NCBI RefSeq assembly: GCF_004005375.1
Contig: NZ_RZUF01000010.1
Location: 1-64,000, forward strand
Reading direction: 5' to 3'
Length of the DNA: 64,000 bases
Origin: Rheinheimera sediminis
GTDB taxonomy: Bacteria; Pseudomonadota; Gammaproteobacteria; Enterobacterales; Alteromonadaceae
Shown here: in pieces, positions 42,850 through 52,169 of the stretch
Numbering within the stretch: position 1 is the first letter of the stretch
Layout: each line of letters begins with the position of its first letter
Position numbers and translations under genes: made by a program
Notes under the pieces: model-generated
Seen by the model: only the letters and a program-made list of their open reading frames with translations
Told to the model about the DNA's origin: nothing
Database searches by the model: none

Positions 42850-45288
42850 TTGTTACCTGTTGCAGAGATTTGCCCAAGGCTGGTTCAGAGCCTGAAACAG
42901 CACAACAAAGTGATTTTATCTGCACCGCCTGGTGCTGGTAAATCAACCTACCTACCCCTGTATTTACTTAACGATGCTGATTTTGCAGGCAAAACTATTT
43001 TGCTGTTAGAGCCGAGACGGCTGGCGGCTAAAAGTATTGCCAGTTATCTGGCCAGCCAGTTGAACGAAGCCGTGGGTCAGCAGGTAGGCTATCAAATCCG
43101 CCATGAAAAAAATTTCAGCAAAAATACCCGATTATTGATAGTCACAGAAGGGATATTAATCCGAAAAATTCAGCAGGATCCAGAGCTTACAGCTATAGAC
43201 CTGATTATATTTGATGAATTTCATGAACGCTCCTTGCAAGCCGATTTAGCTTTGGCTTTGGCGCTGGAAGTGCAGCAACTGAATACTGAGTTGCAACTGC
43301 TGATTATGTCTGCGACTTTAGATCAGCAAAAACTTGCAACGGCTTTAGATGCACCTGTGCTTAGCAGTGAAGGTCGCAGTTATCCGGTTGAGATCCTGTA
43401 TCAGCCGCCGAGCTCTGAACCCATCTGGTTACAAAGTGCCAGATTAAGTCTGCAAGCCAGCCAAAAACATCAGGGCAGTATTCTGACCTTTTTACCTGGC
43501 CAGCGTGATATTAATCAGGCAAAGGACTGGTTATTGGAGCAAAGCAGAGACAGCAACTTAGATATTTATGCTTTATCCGGTGCTTTAACTTTAGCTGAGC
43601 AGCAGCAAGCCATAGCACCAAGTCCGGCAGGGCGGCGTAAACTGGTGCTGACCACTAATATTGCTGAAACCAGTCTGACTATTGAAGGTATTCAGGTGGT
43701 AGTGGATTCGGGTTGGTGTCGTCAGGCTGTGTATCATCCGAAACATGGTTTAACCAGGCTCGATACTGTCGCTATCAGCCAGGCTGCTGCTATTCAAAGA
43801 GCGGGTCGGGCGGGGCGTTTATCGGCCGGTATTTGTTATCGCCTTGACAGTGCCGAGTTATGGCAGCGCCGTATTGCGTACACTCCGGCTTCAATACTGC
43901 AATCGGATTTAACTTCGCTGCTGTTAGAAATCTCGGCCTGGGGCTGTTCAGCAGAGCAACTCTTCTGGTTGGATCAACCGCCACAAGCCAACTTGAAATC
44001 TGCAGCCTGGGTGTTGTTGCAACTGAAAGCCATCACGAACAAAGGCCAAATCACCGACTTTGGCAGGCGGTTGTTAGCTACAGGGACTGAACCCAGACTA
44101 GCCGCTTTAGTGCTGCATGGTAAAGAGTTGGAACAACAAGGTGAGCAAGGTGCAGCCTGGTTAGCTGTGGTGCTGGCAACTCTGCTGGAAAACCCAAACC
44201 GCAGCCGGGAGCAGGATATCGACCAGTTACTACAGCAACCCTTGTATGGCGCTTTATTGCAACAGGCAAAACAACTGGCACAGCAGAATCAAATTAAAGT
44301 CAGTGCTTTTTTACCACAGCATTTAACAGCCGCCTTATTAAGCCGGGCTTTTCCCGACAGGATCGCGTTATTAAGGGGGAAAGGTTATCTGCTAACCAAC
44401 AGTGCCGGTGCTTCGTTGTTTCCGGACAGCCCTTTAGCTGGTGCTGAAGTACTGGTGATCTGTGATTTGTATTTTGGTCAAAGTACCCAAATTAGTCTGG
44501 CAGCTCGCTGGAGTATGGCAGGGCTGATAAAGGAGTGGCAGGCTGATTTACAACAACAGCAGTATGTGGGTTTTGATGCTCAACAAGGGCGTTTTATCGC
44601 AGAGCAACGTTTAACACTAGGCAGCTGCGTGCTGGAACGTAAACCACTGAATCTCAAACTAACAGAAGTACAGCAGCAACAGGCCTGGCTGGATTGGTTA
44701 AAACAGCAGGGTTTGCAGTCTTTGGCCTGGACAGATCAAGCCCTGCAGCTGCGCTACAGGCTGCAGCTTATGCAAGTTGATATGCCTGAACATCAGTTGC
44801 CCAAGGTGGATGAAGATAGCTTGTGGGCTGATGCTGACGTTTGGTTAGCACCAGCTTTGGGTAAATTTACAAAGTTGAATGATTTGAATAAGTTAGATCT
44901 TTATACTTTATTGTGGCAACGTTTAACTTACCAGGAACAACAGTTGCTCAATAGCTGTATGCCAGACAGTTGGCGTTCAGCGACAGGCTCTATGATCCCT
45001 GTGAGTTATAGCGAGGAAGGGGAGGCTATTTTGTCGATCCGTATTCAGGAAATGTTTGGCCAACTTCAGACCCCCACTGTTGCAAAGGGGCGAAGAGCCA
45101 TGAAGATTCATTTATTGTCACCGGCGCGTCGACCACTGCAGGTAACGCAGGATTTGGCAAGTTTCTGGGCGAACAGTTATTCCGACGTAAAAAAAGAAAT
45201 GAAAGGTCGTTACCCTAAACACTATTGGCCTGATAATCCAGCAGAGGCCATGCCGACTAATAAAACTAAAAAAGCTATGCAAAAATGA
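42850..45288 (+). CDS. hrpB: ATP-dependent helicase HrpB
   Basis: DEAH/RHA-type helicase of unknown cellular target. Walker A is SAPPGAGKSTYLP, the Walker B box is DEFH (FDEFHERSL), motif III is SATLD, and motif VI is IQRAGRAGRL. The HrpB-specific C-terminal domain follows (PVSYSEEGEAILSIRIQEMF). There is no in-frame ATG before the ATPase core. The open frame begins with TTG at 42829, inside the pepB terminator. TTG 42850 (LPVAEICPRL, matching E. coli LPVAAVLPEL) is the better start and gives 812 residues. The stop overlaps the mrcB ATG (ATGA), reproducing the E. coli hrpB-mrcB pair. Confidence 0.95.
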   Translation: MLPVAEICPRLVQSLKQHNKVILSAPPGAGKSTYLPLYLLNDADFAGKTILLLEPRRLAAKSIASYLASQLNEAVGQQVGYQIRHEKNFSKNTRLLIVTEGILIRKIQQDPELTAIDLIIFDEFHERSLQADLALALALEVQQLNTELQLLIMSATLDQQKLATALDAPVLSSEGRSYPVEILYQPPSSEPIWLQSARLSLQASQKHQGSILTFLPGQRDINQAKDWLLEQSRDSNLDIYALSGALTLAEQQQAIAPSPAGRRKLVLTTNIAETSLTIEGIQVVVDSGWCRQAVYHPKHGLTRLDTVAISQAAAIQRAGRAGRLSAGICYRLDSAELWQRRIAYTPASILQSDLTSLLLEISAWGCSAEQLFWLDQPPQANLKSAAWVLLQLKAITNKGQITDFGRRLLATGTEPRLAALVLHGKELEQQGEQGAAWLAVVLATLLENPNRSREQDIDQLLQQPLYGALLQQAKQLAQQNQIKVSAFLPQHLTAALLSRAFPDRIALLRGKGYLLTNSAGASLFPDSPLAGAEVLVICDLYFGQSTQISLAARWSMAGLIKEWQADLQQQQYVGFDAQQGRFIAEQRLTLGSCVLERKPLNLKLTEVQQQQAWLDWLKQQGLQSLAWTDQALQLRYRLQLMQVDMPEHQLPKVDEDSLWADADVWLAPALGKFTKLNDLNKLDLYTLLWQRLTYQEQQLLNSCMPDSWRSATGSMIPVSYSEEGEAILSIRIQEMFGQLQTPTVAKGRRAMKIHLLSPARRPLQVTQDLASFWANSYSDVKKEMKGRYPKHYWPDNPAEAMPTNKTKKAMQK

Positions 45289-47546
45289 CCCAAACAAAAA
45301 GCCGTGCACCCAGAAAAAAAACTGTTGCCAAACACCCGAGGAGTCCAGGCTTCGCCCGGCAGATGCTTTGGTTTGGACTGAAATTAGGCCTGGTGCTACT
45401 GTTGACCTTGTTTATCTATCTGATTTACTTGGACAGCAAAATTACCACTTTGTTTTCTGGTAATAAATGGCAATTTCCGGCCCAGGTTTATGCCAGAAGT
45501 CTGGAGATCATACCTGGTAAGAATTTGACGAAAAAGCAGTTGGTCAGCGAACTGGACTTGTTGCAATACAGAGCTGTGACTGCAGTAAAAGGGCCAGGGC
45601 AATACAGCCAAAATGGCGAGCAAGTTGTTGTTTTTCGTCGCGCTTTTCAGTTTGCTGATGGTTATGATCAGGAAGAGGTCTTTACTGTATCTTTTGCTGG
45701 TCAACGGGTGCATAGCATTTATGATCACCAGCTAAAGAAGTCGGTACAAAAAGCCAGGATAGAGCCCCAACTGGTGCAGCATCTGGTGTCCTCTGCGCAG
45801 GAAGACAGAGAAATGGTATTTTTGGCGGATATGCCTGAGCATATCAAAGATGCGTTGCTGACTGTAGAGGATCGAGATTTTTATCAACATCATGGCGTCT
45901 CCCTCTGGTCTGTTGTTCGGGCATTCTGGGTCAATCTACAGGCTGGCAGAACAGTACAGGGTGGGTCGACTTTGACCCAGCAGTTGGCGAAAAATATGTA
46001 TCTGACCTCAGACCAAACCTTGATCCGCAAAGTCAATGAAGCACTCATCGCATTGATCCTTGATTATCGTTACAGCAAAGATCAGATTCTTGAAGCTTAT
46101 CTGAATGAAATATTTCTTGGCCAGTTTCATAACAATGCTGTGCATGGTTTTGGTCTGGCTAGTAAGTTCTACTTCGGTAAACCGCTCGATGAACTACTAC
46201 CGGAAGAATATGCGTTGCTCGTGGCTATTGTTAAGGGGCCTTCCTATTACGATCCGCGCCGTTTTGGTGCCAGGGCCAAAGATCGTCGCGATCTGGTTCT
46301 GAAAATGTTACACAACGAGCGTCTGTTGTCGGACATTGAGTATAAGACGGCTATTAGCAAACCTTTAGCTGTGATCCCTATGGGTCAGCATTTAAAAGGT
46401 CGTTCACCTTCCTATTTAGACGCAGTAAAGCGTGAACTTAAAGAGCTTCTTGCCGATCAGAGTGTTATCGAAAAGGGCGTGAAAATTTTTACTTACATGG
46501 ACCCTCAGGCACAGCTGGCCGCTGAAGATGCTGTTAAACAAAGGCTGTCTGCGCTCGATAGCAAACTGGAGGCAGCTATGGTGGTGACTGATTATCAGGC
46601 TGGAGCTTATAAAGCCATAGTGGGTGGTAAAGCAGTGCATTTTGCTGGCTACAACAGAGCTTTAGATGCCCGCCGGCAAATTGGCAGTATAGTCAAACCC
46701 GTATTGTATTTGCAGGCTCTGGAAAAATCCGAGCAGTTTAGTCTGGCGACTATGTTGGACGACAGTCCTATTCACCTCAAAGGGAATCCGAAGAGCTGGA
46801 GTCCACAAAATTTTGATAAAAAGTTTCGTGGTCAGGTCCCTTTGATCCAGGCTTTGTCTGAGTCGTTAAATGTACCCACAGTGCGTTTGGGTTTAAAACT
46901 GGGTTTACCCGCATTAAAAGATGGCTTTCAGCGCCTTGGGCTGGAGCGTGAACTGAAACTTCAGCCTTCAGCTTTTTTAGGTGCAGTAGAGCTAACGCCA
47001 GCTGAAGTGGCACAGTTGTATCAAGTTATTGCCAACAAAGGGCTTTATATAAAATTAGCCAGTATAGAGTCAATTACCAAAACAGACGGTACTATGCTGT
47101 ATGAACGCAGAAACATTCGGCAACAAAGAGTTACAGAAGAAGCGAATTACCTGTTGCAGTATGCAATGCAACAAAGCACCCGCAGTGGTACGGGCAAGGT
47201 ACTGGCGAATCAGTTTCCAGGCATACGTTTTGCGGGAAAAACCGGAACATCCAGCGATCATAAAGACAGTTGGTTTACAGGTTTTGAGCATGAAACCTCT
47301 ATTACTATCTGGTTAGGAAGAGATGATAATAAATCTATAGGTTTGACTGGGGGGTCGGGAGCTTTAACGCTATTTAGTCATTACTTCAGACGTGTGCCTG
47401 CTAATTCTTTGTTCAGGGCTGTACCACCAGATATTGCGCTAGGACGCTTTTCTGCAACTACAGGTCGAGCCGTGGCTGACTACTGTGATGGAACCCTGTT
47501 GTTGCCAAAAGTTGTCAATACGACACTAGCTACAGAATGCGAATAA
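45285..47546 (+). CDS. mrcB: Penicillin-binding protein 1B
   Basis: Bifunctional inner-membrane peptidoglycan synthase. 753 residues: a short basic cytoplasmic tail, one TM (about 29-49), then a UB2H-like region (about 60-150) that in E. coli binds LpoB. The GT51 glycosyltransferase has VEDRDFYQHHGVSLWSV and GGSTLTQQLAKNMYL. The transpeptidase has SIVKP (catalytic Ser), SESLNVPT and KTGTSSDH. It is coupled to hrpB by a 4-bp overlap. An lpoB gene is not in the window. Only 17 bp separate it from the next regulator gene. Confidence 0.97.
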   Translation: MTQTKSRAPRKKTVAKHPRSPGFARQMLWFGLKLGLVLLLTLFIYLIYLDSKITTLFSGNKWQFPAQVYARSLEIIPGKNLTKKQLVSELDLLQYRAVTAVKGPGQYSQNGEQVVVFRRAFQFADGYDQEEVFTVSFAGQRVHSIYDHQLKKSVQKARIEPQLVQHLVSSAQEDREMVFLADMPEHIKDALLTVEDRDFYQHHGVSLWSVVRAFWVNLQAGRTVQGGSTLTQQLAKNMYLTSDQTLIRKVNEALIALILDYRYSKDQILEAYLNEIFLGQFHNNAVHGFGLASKFYFGKPLDELLPEEYALLVAIVKGPSYYDPRRFGARAKDRRDLVLKMLHNERLLSDIEYKTAISKPLAVIPMGQHLKGRSPSYLDAVKRELKELLADQSVIEKGVKIFTYMDPQAQLAAEDAVKQRLSALDSKLEAAMVVTDYQAGAYKAIVGGKAVHFAGYNRALDARRQIGSIVKPVLYLQALEKSEQFSLATMLDDSPIHLKGNPKSWSPQNFDKKFRGQVPLIQALSESLNVPTVRLGLKLGLPALKDGFQRLGLERELKLQPSAFLGAVELTPAEVAQLYQVIANKGLYIKLASIESITKTDGTMLYERRNIRQQRVTEEANYLLQYAMQQSTRSGTGKVLANQFPGIRFAGKTGTSSDHKDSWFTGFEHETSITIWLGRDDNKSIGLTGGSGALTLFSHYFRRVPANSLFRAVPPDIALGRFSATTGRAVADYCDGTLLLPKVVNTTLATECE

Positions 47547-47563
47547 ACGGGAATTAATAACCT

Positions 47564-49714
47564 ATGTCGTTCAAGCCAGATAAACAGTTAAAAGTTGAAG
47601 AGTGGTGGTATTTGCCACAGCTGGATAAGCTGGCAAAGCTCAACAGCAAAATGGAGGTGTGCGAACAGGCTGACCTTGATCATTTGTGTCAAAGTGTACT
47701 GAACTTTTTTTTGCTGAATCCTGGCCGTTTGATTAGTAAAGAAGAGTTGTTAAGAGAAGTGTGGCAAATGACCGCTGTTACGGATGGTCGTGTGGCCAGA
47801 GTGATCAGTATTCTGCGCGATGTGCTGGGTGATAGCGTTAAAGCGCCCCGTTACATCGAAACTATCCCAAAAAGAGGCTACCGTTTTATTGCTAAAGTGA
47901 TAGAGCAGGAGCAACTGATAGCCCAGGGCTCTGCTTCAGATGAAGAGCCAGAAAGCGTAGCTGAGAGAAAACAAAACCAGCTTTGGTGGCTTGGTTTGAC
48001 AGCCGCAACCTTGTTTGTAGCTATTTTTGTCAGTTGGTTTTTCTGGCCTGCTACAGACCTTGCCGATGATCAGGTGCCTTTTGTCAACTGGAGCCCTGTT
48101 TCTTCTAAAGATGGTTTTGAATATTACCCGGCCTTATCCGCCGATTTAAATTTTTTGGTGTACAGTTATAAAAAAGATAAAAACTCACCTAATGTATTGA
48201 TGTTACAAAATTTGAAAAACCATCAAACGCAACAGTTGACCAACAGTGATGCCGATGATTATGGCGCCAGTTTCCGACCTGATGGCAAAGCCATCGCTTA
48301 TCAACGACTAAAATACAGAGAATACTGTGAAATACGCTTACTGAGCTTTGAGGGCGAGCCCGGCCAGTCTGACTGGACTGATGAGTTATTAACTAATTGC
48401 GGTAACAGCAGTGTTTCAAGCCGTATATCTTGGGCTGCCGATGCTCGCTCGTTAATTTATACCAGCGATGAAAATAGCCCTCAGCGTATGGCCATTTTTT
48501 CTTTAGATTTAACTTCAAAAAATAAAACTCAGCTGGTTTTACCTGACAACAGTGGCATGGGCGATTTTACCGCTCGTTATTCACATAGCGGTGATAAAAT
48601 TGCATTTTTACGCGATGTCGCCAGCAACTCAGTGCAAATCTGGTTAAAAGATTTAGTCAGTGGTGAAACTTCCTTAATTCTACATTTAAAAGACAGCTAC
48701 CCAGGTGATATAGCCTGGAGTAAAGACGACCAGTTGATTTATTACCCCGCGAAGAAATGGAACATCGAAGCAGTAGCCGTAAAAAGCGGTATAACTAAAA
48801 CTGTGGCTTTAACTGACAATCAAGCTTATGAGATTTTGCTGGGTAAACATGGTGAGTTCTACGGCACTATTGGTTTATATGGTAACTATCATATTAAAAA
48901 GTCTAATAATCCAATTTTAAATAATATCGCCTCCGATATTGTCGTATTTAAATCTAACCGTAGCGAACGACAAGTTGAAGCAAATCCTCTCAGTGCAGGG
49001 CCTACTGCTATTGCTTCGAAGCGTACGGGATTAGCTCAGATATGGTTGTTCTATCCTGATGGTGAGCAGTTGATGGTGAGTAACTTTACGAATTCTGTCT
49101 TGATTTCTGAGATGAAGTTTTCTCCTGATGGAAGAAAATTACTAGCGTTAATAGATCAGCAGGTTTGGTTATTCGATCTAAAAGGGAACTCTCATCCTAT
49201 TAGCAAACCAGGCGAGGTCGTAAAAAATATGACATGGGGCAAAGCGGCCGATACTGTTTTTTATACTATTCAGCAAAAGGGCCGTTGGCAGTTGATGCAA
49301 TACTCTTTAGTTCAGAAGCAGCATGCTATTCCTTATTTAGACGGTATAGATTTTTATTTACAAAGCCGTAACGGGGAATACCAGCTTAAACGAAGTGCTT
49401 CCGACGGTATCTATGTATTAGTTTCCAAATTAGGAGAAGAAAAACTACCAGCAGAGTTGCAGCGTTTGTTAGTTACTGAGGCAACGATAGTGTTGTGGGA
49501 CAATGGGATTTACTTTTCGAGCGTTAATACTGAACAGCAAAGCCAGATCTATTTTTATTCATACAACACTAAAAAAATTACACCTTTGGGCTTGATGTCA
49601 GATCTTTACTCTTCCAGATTTTCATTAAGCCATGACGGGCAGTTTATTTTTATGGTGGTCGGCGAGACTAAAGATGTGGATATAGCAAAATTAGAGTTAA
49701 AAACCACAAAATAA
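47564..49714 (+). CDS. Membrane-bound ToxR/CadC-type winged-helix regulator with beta-propeller sensor (1)
   Basis: 716 residues. An OmpR/ToxR-type winged helix occupies about 10-112, with SKEELLREVWQ, VARVISILRDVLGD and YIETIPKRGYRFIA. A single TM (about 140-161) puts the remaining 550 residues in the periplasm. That part has TolB/WD40-like blade motifs (GASFRPDGKAIAYQR, SWAADARSLIYTSDE, KFSPDGRKLLALID), pointing to a beta-propeller. Such proteins bind DNA while membrane-anchored and sense periplasmic signals. The target is unknown. It starts 17 bp after mrcB, so it may be co-transcribed and sense wall status, which is only an inference. A paralogue follows at 50088. Confidence 0.9.
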   Translation: MSFKPDKQLKVEEWWYLPQLDKLAKLNSKMEVCEQADLDHLCQSVLNFFLLNPGRLISKEELLREVWQMTAVTDGRVARVISILRDVLGDSVKAPRYIETIPKRGYRFIAKVIEQEQLIAQGSASDEEPESVAERKQNQLWWLGLTAATLFVAIFVSWFFWPATDLADDQVPFVNWSPVSSKDGFEYYPALSADLNFLVYSYKKDKNSPNVLMLQNLKNHQTQQLTNSDADDYGASFRPDGKAIAYQRLKYREYCEIRLLSFEGEPGQSDWTDELLTNCGNSSVSSRISWAADARSLIYTSDENSPQRMAIFSLDLTSKNKTQLVLPDNSGMGDFTARYSHSGDKIAFLRDVASNSVQIWLKDLVSGETSLILHLKDSYPGDIAWSKDDQLIYYPAKKWNIEAVAVKSGITKTVALTDNQAYEILLGKHGEFYGTIGLYGNYHIKKSNNPILNNIASDIVVFKSNRSERQVEANPLSAGPTAIASKRTGLAQIWLFYPDGEQLMVSNFTNSVLISEMKFSPDGRKLLALIDQQVWLFDLKGNSHPISKPGEVVKNMTWGKAADTVFYTIQQKGRWQLMQYSLVQKQHAIPYLDGIDFYLQSRNGEYQLKRSASDGIYVLVSKLGEEKLPAELQRLLVTEATIVLWDNGIYFSSVNTEQQSQIYFYSYNTKKITPLGLMSDLYSSRFSLSHDGQFIFMVVGETKDVDIAKLELKTTK

Positions 49715-49807
49715 TCATAAATTTATAATTTTTTCATCAGTTTATAGAGACTTTTCAACAGGATACTGGTTTGGTCAAATTCAACCAACTAACTGGGAAG
49801 TCACAAA

Positions 49808-50017
49808 ATGAAAGTTACTAAATTCATTCTAGCTGTTACTTTTACGGCGTCAGTATTTTTCGTCACAGAACAAGAACCCGTTATAGAAAAAAATGTAGCT
49901 CAAGATATAGCTGGAGTATGTCCAGCGTGGCCAATTTGTCGAGGAGAAGTTAAAGTAGATGAACTTTCATTGGATTCGATGATGCAGGAATCTTTGATAA
50001 ATAGTTCAGAAGCTTGA
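49808..50017 (+). CDS. Small secreted-type peptide between two membrane regulators
   Basis: 69 residues, not recognised. MKVTKFILAVTFTASVFFV (1-19) is a signal peptide or membrane anchor. The remainder is short and acidic with only two Cys (38 and 44, GVCPAWPICRG), which could form one disulfide loop. A GGGAAG lies upstream of the ATG at acceptable spacing. It lies 93 bp after the first ToxR-type regulator and 70 bp before the second. It may be a periplasmic ligand or target of these regulators, or an unrelated small protein. Codon use looks normal for the region. Confidence 0.6.
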   Translation: MKVTKFILAVTFTASVFFVTEQEPVIEKNVAQDIAGVCPAWPICRGEVKVDELSLDSMMQESLINSSEA

Positions 50018-50056
50018 ATACAACACCTCTCTACTTTTCGTCTGAATTGGTTATAA

Positions 50057-50082
50057 TCCGCCTACTTAGTTATGTAGGCGGA
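50057..50082 (+). promoter_or_regulatory. Hairpin covering the ribosome-binding site of the second regulator
   Basis: The perfect 9-bp stem tccgcctac / gtaggcgga has an 8-nt loop. Its right arm contains GGCGGA, which is the Shine-Dalgarno five bases before ATG 50088. A TATAAT-like -10 (50052-50057) abuts its left arm, so a transcript starting there would lack part of the stem, while read-through RNA would fold it. Confidence 0.5.
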
Positions 50083-50087
50083 CCCTT

Positions 50088-52169
50088 ATGCATTATACGG
50101 CAGACTACCTGACCTTTGGTCAATGGCGGTATCTGCGTTCCATAGGACAATTACAGTCTCTGTCAGCTGCTGCTGATCCGGAGGTATTGACCTTGGAACC
50201 TCGTCTGCATAAGTTGCTTAACTTCTTTCTTGATCACAAAGATCTGGTGCTAAGCCGGGAAGAATTGCTTACTGGAGTCTGGGGCGAAGGCCTGGGATCA
50301 GATGAGTCTTTGAGTCGTGCTGTTGCAGCACTGCGGCGTGTATTGAATGACAGTAGAGTTAAACCTTTTTACATTGCCACTTTGTCTAAAAAAGGCTATT
50401 GCTGGCAAGCTGCTGTAACGCAACTGGAGGTCCCTCCTGAGCCAGTTCAAGAACGAGTTCCTGCAGAGCCTCTGGATTTAATCAGTACTCAAAAAGCTAT
50501 AGAAAAGTGGCAAATTAAAAAGTTATCTAAGCTCAAGCGTATTCGCTATATCTGGTTAAGTACTTTAGTTTTATTACTTTTTAGTTTTGCTTTTGCGTTG
50601 CTACTAAACAAAATGAACGAAAAAGCAGCTCTGCCTCGTTATCTGCAGGTGAGTCCGGTCAGTGCGCTGGATGGTAAAGAACAGACTCCCTTATTATCTG
50701 CAGATCGATCCTTAGTTGTATTCCAACATCAAGCTTCAGACAGTCTGGATTGGTATTGGGTGGTGCAACAACTCGTTTCCATGCAAAGTCTTCAGGATGA
50801 GCAAAGGTATCAGCAGCTCTCTCAGCCTCAATGGGCGAATTCAGAGCAAATCGTATTTCGTGCTCAGCAGCAACAGCACTGCGCTTTCTGGCGAAAAACA
50901 GTGAAACACAGATTCGATGCTGCCATCCCTTTATTTTCCTGCCATCAGTTTATTGCGCAGGGGCAGGCTATGACGTCCGAGGGATTGTATTGGCTCGATT
51001 TAGATCCCGCAACAGGGCAAAGTCAACTCTGGTTATGGCAACAAGATAGCTCTCAGCGCTTATTAATGACTTTTCCCGGCCACTGGCGTGGAGTCAGTCA
51101 TTTAATAGTCAAAGACAAAAAAGCCTATGCTATTGCGCAGTTTGGGTATAGCTACTCGGCGCTTCTGGAGCTTGATCTTTCTGAGTTAGATTGGCGAATT
51201 GTCACAGAGTTTGATTTCTCAGCCAATCAACTTGCTTGGTGGGGGGATAATGATGTTTTGGTGAATAAATCTGTCCGTCAGTTACAGGTATTGTCGTTAC
51301 GTACCGGCAACAGTAGGGTCTTTGGCGAAATGGCTGTTAATTTGGCCGACAGCTCGGTTTGGCAAAACTCTTTATTGGGCACTTATCCTGCACAGGCTGC
51401 GACCGACTTGCGTCAGCTTGACTGGCAAGAACAAAACAACAAACTGGTGGCCTTACCTTTTGTCGACAGTAACAGGTCAGATTATCTTTTAGTCACACAT
51501 CAGGAACAGTATTTTTTTGTATCAGAGCGCTCTGGTTTACCTCAGCTGTGGCGCTCAAAAGGACCAGTGACGGAGCAAATCAGTCAATTTGACACTGAAT
51601 ACCAGATTGAACAGTTGTTATGGTTTGAAGGGAATTTAGTTGTGCGGATTGACCGACAGTTGTTCTATTTTTCAGATGGTCAATTAAAGCCTTTTATGCA
51701 AAAAATGGTCGGAAGTGAGAATTTTGTGGTCTGTGCAGATACCCTATACTGGATATCCAGAAACAAGCAAAGTTGGGCCTTGTATCAGTTGCAACAGGGG
51801 AATGTGAGCGAAGTTGTAAAAGATGTGGTTAATGTGCAGTGTGGACCAGAGAGCAGCTTGTTGTTGCAGCAGCAAAACTCTGCTTATGTAAAACAATGGC
51901 GACAAGGCCAAATTTTTACATTACCGATCCAAATCAGTTGGCGTACTACTGAACCTGCAGCCTGGGCCAGTACTGCAGCGGGCTTATATTGGTTGTCTGA
52001 TAGTGGTAAAACGTTAAATTATTACGATTGGCGTGACAAGTTACAGCAAAAATGGCCTTTGGTAGAACCTGCTCAGGCTTTGGTCTACGGTAATGGTGCT
52101 TTATTTGTGCAGCAATTCAGGGCTCAGGATACAGACATTGTCTGGTTGCATCCTGAGCCTGCTGAATAA
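50088..52169 (+). CDS. Membrane-bound ToxR/CadC-type winged-helix regulator (2)
   Basis: 693 residues, same layout as the regulator at 47564 but strongly diverged. The winged helix spans about 8-112 (LEPRLHKLLNFFLDH, SREELLTGVWGEGL, LSRAVAALRRVLND, YIATLSKKGYCW). A TM follows at about 154-174, then about 520 periplasmic residues rich in Trp and Gln. Blade-like repeats are present but weak. The pair probably arose by duplication. The gene carries its own possible promoter and a hairpin over its ribosome-binding site. Confidence 0.88.
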   Translation: MHYTADYLTFGQWRYLRSIGQLQSLSAAADPEVLTLEPRLHKLLNFFLDHKDLVLSREELLTGVWGEGLGSDESLSRAVAALRRVLNDSRVKPFYIATLSKKGYCWQAAVTQLEVPPEPVQERVPAEPLDLISTQKAIEKWQIKKLSKLKRIRYIWLSTLVLLLFSFAFALLLNKMNEKAALPRYLQVSPVSALDGKEQTPLLSADRSLVVFQHQASDSLDWYWVVQQLVSMQSLQDEQRYQQLSQPQWANSEQIVFRAQQQQHCAFWRKTVKHRFDAAIPLFSCHQFIAQGQAMTSEGLYWLDLDPATGQSQLWLWQQDSSQRLLMTFPGHWRGVSHLIVKDKKAYAIAQFGYSYSALLELDLSELDWRIVTEFDFSANQLAWWGDNDVLVNKSVRQLQVLSLRTGNSRVFGEMAVNLADSSVWQNSLLGTYPAQAATDLRQLDWQEQNNKLVALPFVDSNRSDYLLVTHQEQYFFVSERSGLPQLWRSKGPVTEQISQFDTEYQIEQLLWFEGNLVVRIDRQLFYFSDGQLKPFMQKMVGSENFVVCADTLYWISRNKQSWALYQLQQGNVSEVVKDVVNVQCGPESSLLLQQQNSAYVKQWRQGQIFTLPIQISWRTTEPAAWASTAAGLYWLSDSGKTLNYYDWRDKLQQKWPLVEPAQALVYGNGALFVQQFRAQDTDIVWLHPEPAE

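Follow-up and report, generated by a model that had tools for sequence, protein, structure and literature searches.

What does a gene for a small secreted peptide do between the genes of two membrane-anchored transcription regulators? The question is raised by positions 47564-52169 of a 64,000-nucleotide stretch of Rheinheimera sediminis DNA (contig NZ_RZUF01000010.1, positions 1 to 64,000 of the forward strand; hereafter the window), where three genes follow one another on the + strand: reg1 (47564-49714, 716 residues), a 69-codon peptide gene (49808-50017) and reg2 (50088-52169, 693 residues). A sequence-only reading of the window had described two ToxR/CadC-type regulators around a secreted-type peptide with a C-x5-C loop, and domain matches, the open reading frame (ORF) and AlphaFold models all bear this arrangement out. 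We infer that the peptide probably serves a neighbouring one-component membrane regulator as its dedicated periplasmic ligand and feeds back on the gene that encodes it.

The domain order of reg1 and reg2 is that of ToxR/CadC-type membrane-anchored transcription factors. Each carries an N-terminal OmpR-type winged helix matching Trans_reg_C (PF00486; E 1.4e-13 and 2.6e-13, respectively), and no receiver domain is among their Pfam matches. The AlphaFold models, built on 38 sequences for reg1 and 37 for reg2 (mean predicted local distance difference test scores of 85.6 and 86.3), place after the winged helix a flexible linker, one long membrane helix and tandem beta-propellers of more than 500 residues, the topology being predicted. 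The membrane helix of reg1 is modelled at residues 139-159 (47978-48040, + strand) and that of reg2 within residues 133-180. Thus, the single transmembrane segment and the size of the periplasmic part had been read correctly from the sequence, but the propeller-like structure, assigned then to the first protein, is predicted in both.

The two sensors do not resemble TolB equally. In the model, reg1 residues 172-430 (48077-48853, + strand) are a TolB-type beta-propeller, a likeness of fold and not of function: aligned with VIA-align to TolB holding a colicin E9 peptide (2ivz), they gave a Z score of 26.8 and a root-mean-square deviation of 2.5 A over 239 residues. The reg1 protein additionally matched PD40/DPPIV_N and, in part, the NCBIfam TolB propeller model TIGR02800 (E 1.9e-13). 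Its second propeller spans residues ~431-710 (48854-49693, + strand) according to the AlphaFold model and structure comparison. For the first propeller of reg2, the alignment to TolB was poorer (Z 19-20), and TolB was one of several propellers matched. Whole sensors resembled tandem-propeller receptors such as LRP6 in architecture only; whole-chain Foldseek template modelling scores were low (about 0.2-0.3), a probable effect of a different placement of the two propellers in the matched structures, and per-domain alignment was used instead.

In these marine and freshwater bacteria, the association of regulator and peptide is conserved wherever close reg1 orthologues occur. Among 295 genomes of the family such orthologues were limited to three genera; scanning named genomes showed the three to be Rheinheimera, Arsukibacterium (with further Rheinheimera) and Alkalimonas. 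A secreted two-cysteine peptide followed reg1 directly in 46/46 named loci, with regulators down to ~33% identity; our ORF filter recovered a peptide on the sense strand downstream of reg1 in 45 of them (46 by eye), compared with 4/46 on the antisense strand and a mean of 1.2 in dinucleotide shuffles. The next gene was reg2 in 44 of the 46 loci. One contig ended before reg2 could appear (L160), and in R. nanhaiensis (L169) ~5 kb with several ORFs separate reg2 from the still adjacent reg1 and peptide genes; loss of reg2, our first impression of this locus, was ruled out by finding the gene ~5 kb further on. The sequence-only reading had proposed looking for homologous loci devoid of the peptide and for regulators occurring independently of each other. 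Neither was found: the peptide was never absent, and reg1 and reg2 stayed together in the named loci, both being present in 22/22 genomes of the genus.

The peptide comprises a signal-type N-terminus, a linker and a C-x2-W-P-x-C loop, which in the window copy reads CPAWPIC (residues 38-44, C38-x5-C44; 49919-49939, + strand) and whose C, P and C were invariant in 14 aligned sequences. Across loci the peptide measures 58-97 residues, signal included. Most members keep C-x2-[W/F/Y]-P-x-C; the spacing is longer in a few divergent lineages and the proline is substituted in two. The loop is often followed by R/K-D/E-P/V-D/E, many peptides end in alanine, and many show standard A-x-A-type cleavage sites by inspection. 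Eight diverse members, the window copy included, had no match in Pfam or NCBIfam. In the R. pacifica group the ratio of nonsynonymous to synonymous substitution rates (dN/dS) was 0.23 for the whole peptide and 0.06 for the loop region, and the corresponding polymorphism ratio (pN/pS) of the peptide in Arsukibacterium was 0.33. The peptide is therefore under purifying selection, with its loop strongly constrained. In Arsukibacterium and the R. pacifica group, for example at L139 and L150, the tail after the loop (KDTTKDKKD...LA) was better conserved than the signal and linker and may have a function too.

Over 41 loci, loop distance correlated best with that of reg1 propeller 1 (r 0.757), compared with 0.593 and 0.633 for the reg2 propellers, 0.605 for mrcB, the upstream neighbour, and 0.380 for the reg1 DNA-binding domain. 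In a partial Mantel test with mrcB distance as control, the correlation with reg1 propeller 1 persisted (partial r 0.595, P 0.001), whereas those with the reg2 propellers were 0.073 (first) and 0.250 and that with the reg1 DNA-binding domain was -0.327. The signal peptide of the same gene, serving as a control, gave 0.123 against reg1 propeller 1. These values are suggestive of a partnership between the loop and the first reg1 propeller.

In nine genomes, five of Rheinheimera and four of Alkalimonas, the peptide has two tandem loops. The 7-residue loops were identical to each other within the genome in 9/9 cases (permutation mean 2.0, P 0.00025) but varied from species to species. At the nucleotide level the copies had 1-5 differences, nearly all of them synonymous. 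A multi-copy precursor with a single partner common to its units would show this pattern, which gene conversion and later synonymous drift could also produce.

The pairing is not confined to reg1. Another CadC-like regulator of the same genome, reg3 (G000:C46:122925-125072), has 99 nt downstream a 42-codon secreted peptide ending WCKLTSSCDID, which is conserved to 54% regulator identity (ICQVLSTCDIED). Among reg3 relatives from 345 genomes of the family, peptides lie roughly 50-170 nt downstream and bear loops such as CWFICPPDNASE, CVWFVCPPVDP, CGWFLCKPP, CIWFLQNCAPPP, CRVGPFCEWP, CTDSPTRCERKI and CYLLPARCDKD. When paralogous regulators (23-54% identity) were collapsed into 21 groups free of near-copies, an automatic filter found a secreted two-cysteine peptide, downstream in sense at a distance of ~100 nt, in 12 (shuffle mean 0.5, maximum 2), as against none downstream antisense, none upstream sense and one upstream antisense; one further group (L268) was added by eye. 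A regulator from another family of the order (L287) is also accompanied by a peptide (CQSVPTLCEKHL). Other CadC-like regulators of the R. sediminis genome, taken as controls (three with propellers and one with a nucleoside triphosphatase, NTPase, domain), had no convincing adjacent peptide, nor had more distant propeller regulators from other orders of the class, Acidobacteria and others. The regulator tree resolved three fully supported clades: the orthologues of reg1, those of reg2, and the relatives of reg3. On this tree the peptide label was clustered but required 8 changes, which points to an old association with losses or to repeated gain. Regulator-peptide pairing is thus universal at the reg1 locus and recurs in a looser form among paralogous regulators.

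Two observations concern the wider set of regulators. At the reg3 locus, a LuxR-type (GerE) regulator gene (L255:2545-3198, - strand) comes after the second secreted peptide, and a similar-looking gene stands after some other reg3 relatives (L285). Elsewhere, a 1091-residue protein (L252:2009-5284, + strand) fuses a CadC-type winged helix with an nSTAND1 NTPase and tetratricopeptide repeats.

The peptide gene also has a conserved control region. The interval from the reg1 stop to the peptide start contains an array of TTTAT/TCATC-type half-sites, which 12 near relatives preserve well and which can still be made out in other genera; in the window, a conserved footprint of TCAT/TTTAT half-sites at about 11 bp (TCATAAATTTATAATTTTTTCATCAGTTTAT; 49715-49745, + strand) is a putative operator. 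A half-site spacing of ~11 bp is expected for tandem OmpR/PhoB-type winged helices. The form TTTRT-n4..8-TCRTCRRG occurred in 23/47 loci against 0.015 in shuffles, and near relatives carry the variant TCATCAGT in its place. The exact array was found once in the genome, upstream of the peptide gene, with a single 1-mismatch copy inside an ORF. Genome-wide scans for this operator-like pattern at 1-2 mismatches yielded no nameable further regulon target; the matches lay almost all inside ORFs and look like chance. Downstream of the array are a GATACT -10-like box (49762-49767, + strand) and, between it and the peptide start, an inverted repeat TTGGT-N8-ACCAA (49771-49788, + strand) whose core GGTC...AACC is conserved in near relatives.

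A promoter of its own precedes reg2 (50052-50081, + strand): a -10 box TATAAT (50052-50057) followed by a 24-nt hairpin (50058-50081) with a likely ribosome-binding site. Both elements were present in every locus with an adjacent reg2. The hairpin was 90.4% paired, with a covariation of 0.243 versus 0.136 in shuffled alignments (0/500 shuffles), its pairing being kept despite changes on both sides. It may act as a 5'-terminal RNA element or as a start-site operator.

These results suggest how the cassette might operate. The peptide would be exported by Sec and its loop closed as a disulfide in the periplasm, where it would bind reg1 at the first, TolB-like propeller, in a manner resembling the entry of colicin peptides into TolB. 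TolB itself binds a hairpin peptide, which shows that a propeller of this kind can hold one (PMC2821528). Binding would then alter the attachment of reg1 to the array of 11-bp-spaced repeats upstream of the peptide gene, creating a feedback loop that could be either negative, as with MgrB on PhoQ, or positive, as with a pheromone. The second propeller regulator, reg2, would share the peptide or the target promoter. Sensing of the peptide by the membrane regulators, proposed already in the sequence-only reading, becomes the leading hypothesis through the co-divergence of loop and propeller, the TolB-like fold and the regulator-peptide pairs among paralogues. The accompanying suggestion of a tie to cell-wall status, for which the neighbouring mrcB was the only ground, is unsupported.

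Several points weigh against the peptide being such a ligand. The partial Mantel test is prone to inflation, and within a subset of 23 species the signal peptide correlates with reg1 propeller 1 as well (r 0.762); with the contrast between loop and signal peptide gone there, the co-divergence is suggestive and not decisive. No clean A-x-A cleavage site is present in the signal sequence of the window copy, which could therefore remain membrane-anchored. About 8-9 of the 21 paralogue groups have no such peptide at the same place, and the operator-like array might serve a different regulator. Finally, no dedicated outer-membrane export gene was seen in the conserved block, leaving a cell-to-cell role unsupported.

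The surroundings of the cassette are conserved too. Upstream, mrcB, encoding penicillin-binding protein 1B (45285-47546, + strand; TIGR02071, E 9.7e-255), is the conserved neighbour of reg1, with 17 nt between its stop and the reg1 start. Across this gap the two genes may be transcribed together, as the sequence-only reading had proposed. In loci extending far enough, the order hrpB-like/mrcB/reg1/peptide/reg2, with hemL on the opposite strand, is kept across Rheinheimera, Arsukibacterium and Alkalimonas. This synteny rules out the earlier idea that the block had been inserted after mrcB. Among the neighbours in these loci, namely the hrpB-like helicase gene, mrcB and hemL, there were no adjoining maturation, transport or immunity genes. 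In another genus of the family (L127, genome G041), a reg1-like regulator stands alone directly after mrcB, and neither a separate reg2 match nor a downstream peptide was found; this arrangement is possibly an ancestral or reduced state.

Could the peptide be an output only? The regulators might sense another envelope state, for instance of Tol-Pal, peptidoglycan or a metal, and switch on a peptide that acts on the envelope or on competitors. Such a role would fit the single genomic occurrence of the exact operator-like array, upstream of the peptide gene, as well as the neighbouring mrcB, and cysteine loops are common in antimicrobial and envelope peptides. However, loop divergence tracks the propeller rather than the DNA-binding domain, the conserved block holds no immunity, export or maturation gene, and the identity of the loop copies within each genome is more in keeping with a binding partner than with a general effector; we consider an output-only peptide unlikely. 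A small protein of the ToxS/TcpH sort, which stabilises the regulator or shields it from periplasmic proteolysis without carrying a signal, would be expected in just this position, directly downstream of a ToxR-type regulator in the classic co-component layout (PMC9214523). At ~45 residues, though, the mature peptide is too small for a domain of the ToxS/VtrC type, tandem multi-copy loops and fast change between species are unexpected in a scaffold, and the peptide has a separate conserved control region upstream. Such a helper is quite improbable here.

Still more improbable is a redox or metal relay, in which the cysteine pair of the peptide, after oxidation or metal loading in the periplasm, would report the redox or metal state of the envelope to the regulators, which have cysteines of their own. 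Invariant cysteines are indeed present on both sides, as the pair in the peptide and as C255/C279 of reg1 and C265/C285/C549/C585 of reg2, all periplasmic by prediction. Yet an aromatic-proline loop with species-specific variation suggests recognition and not a generic thiol switch, and the conserved propeller pairs may be merely structural disulfides. As for a chance neighbour, a spurious ORF or a hitch-hiking gene, no support was found, and the selection on the peptide together with the universality and recurrence of the pairing makes this hardly credible.

Should the peptide be a ligand of reg1, the case may extend further, and we propose tentatively, as a possibility that falls short of probable, that Gram-negative bacteria have a hitherto undescribed class of peptide signals, gene-encoded and looped by a disulfide, which membrane-anchored propeller transcription factors read directly; neither a kinase nor import would be involved, and each lineage would hold several distinct peptide-receptor pairs. 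The duplicated loops, identical within a genome, would then make some of the genes true pheromone precursors with species-specific recognition, of which the multiple copies and loop variation are only suggestive. No description of the regulator-peptide pairing was found in the literature searched, which is weak evidence as most subscription journals and preprints lay outside it. Signalling by peptides is familiar from Gram-positive bacteria; descriptions from Gram-negatives are rare. A peptide gene linked by evolution to a single membrane protein, receptor and transcription factor at once, would make a circuit shorter than any other of this kind, leading from export through binding to transcription. 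ToxR/CadC-type regulators, whose signals are mostly unknown, would gain a ligand, a reason would be suggested for the propellers in many of them, and distinct sensor-peptide pairs would become available. With candidate ligands encoded next door, the ligand question becomes directly testable.

How does the cassette compare with known systems? Like the Gram-positive pheromones (AgrD/AgrC, ComX/ComP, PapR/PlcR), it has a dedicated peptide gene beside a receptor, variation between species and possible autoregulation; receptors there are histidine kinases or cytoplasmic regulators, and their maturation genes are absent here. Clusters for bacteriocins or ribosomally synthesised and post-translationally modified peptides are defined by adjacent maturation, transport and immunity genes, which this locus does not have. 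CadC of Escherichia coli has the same order of winged helix-turn-helix, transmembrane segment and periplasmic part, and its model NF007540 was the best NCBIfam match; at 55.6 and 58.7 bits against a 400-bit cut-off, however, the regulators are not CadC equivalogs, propellers replace the CadC periplasmic domain, and the lysine/cadBA context is absent. TolB, unlike reg1, is soluble in the periplasm, has a different N-terminal domain and plays no part in transcription.

Closer parallels come from regulators with small partners. ToxR/ToxS, TcpP/TcpH and VtrA/VtrC likewise combine a membrane-anchored CadC/ToxR-type winged-helix regulator and periplasmic sensor with a small exported partner encoded directly downstream, and an adjacent downstream partner with an export signal, by which ToxR/ToxS and VtrA/VtrC are recognised as co-components, was found here in 46/46 loci. 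The ToxS and VtrC partners, in contrast, are transmembrane-anchored periplasmic domains that co-fold with the sensor (PMC9214523), whereas the partner here is a ~45-residue cysteine-loop peptide, whose signal often looks cleavable and whose loop is sometimes present in two copies; moreover, the sensors are tandem propellers, and two regulators flank one peptide. MgrB (and SafA) on PhoQ offers the likeness of a small exported protein acting on a periplasmic sensor; MgrB is also a target of its system and is linked to DsbA (PMC11825808). It differs in that PhoQ is a kinase, of which there is none here (PMC11825808), and MgrB a membrane protein of other sequence; feedback in our cassette is putative, with an operator-like array upstream of the peptide gene. 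By these analogies, and despite having neither the defining partner feature of the former nor the kinase of the latter, the cassette would appear to work most like a co-component system or like MgrB-PhoQ.

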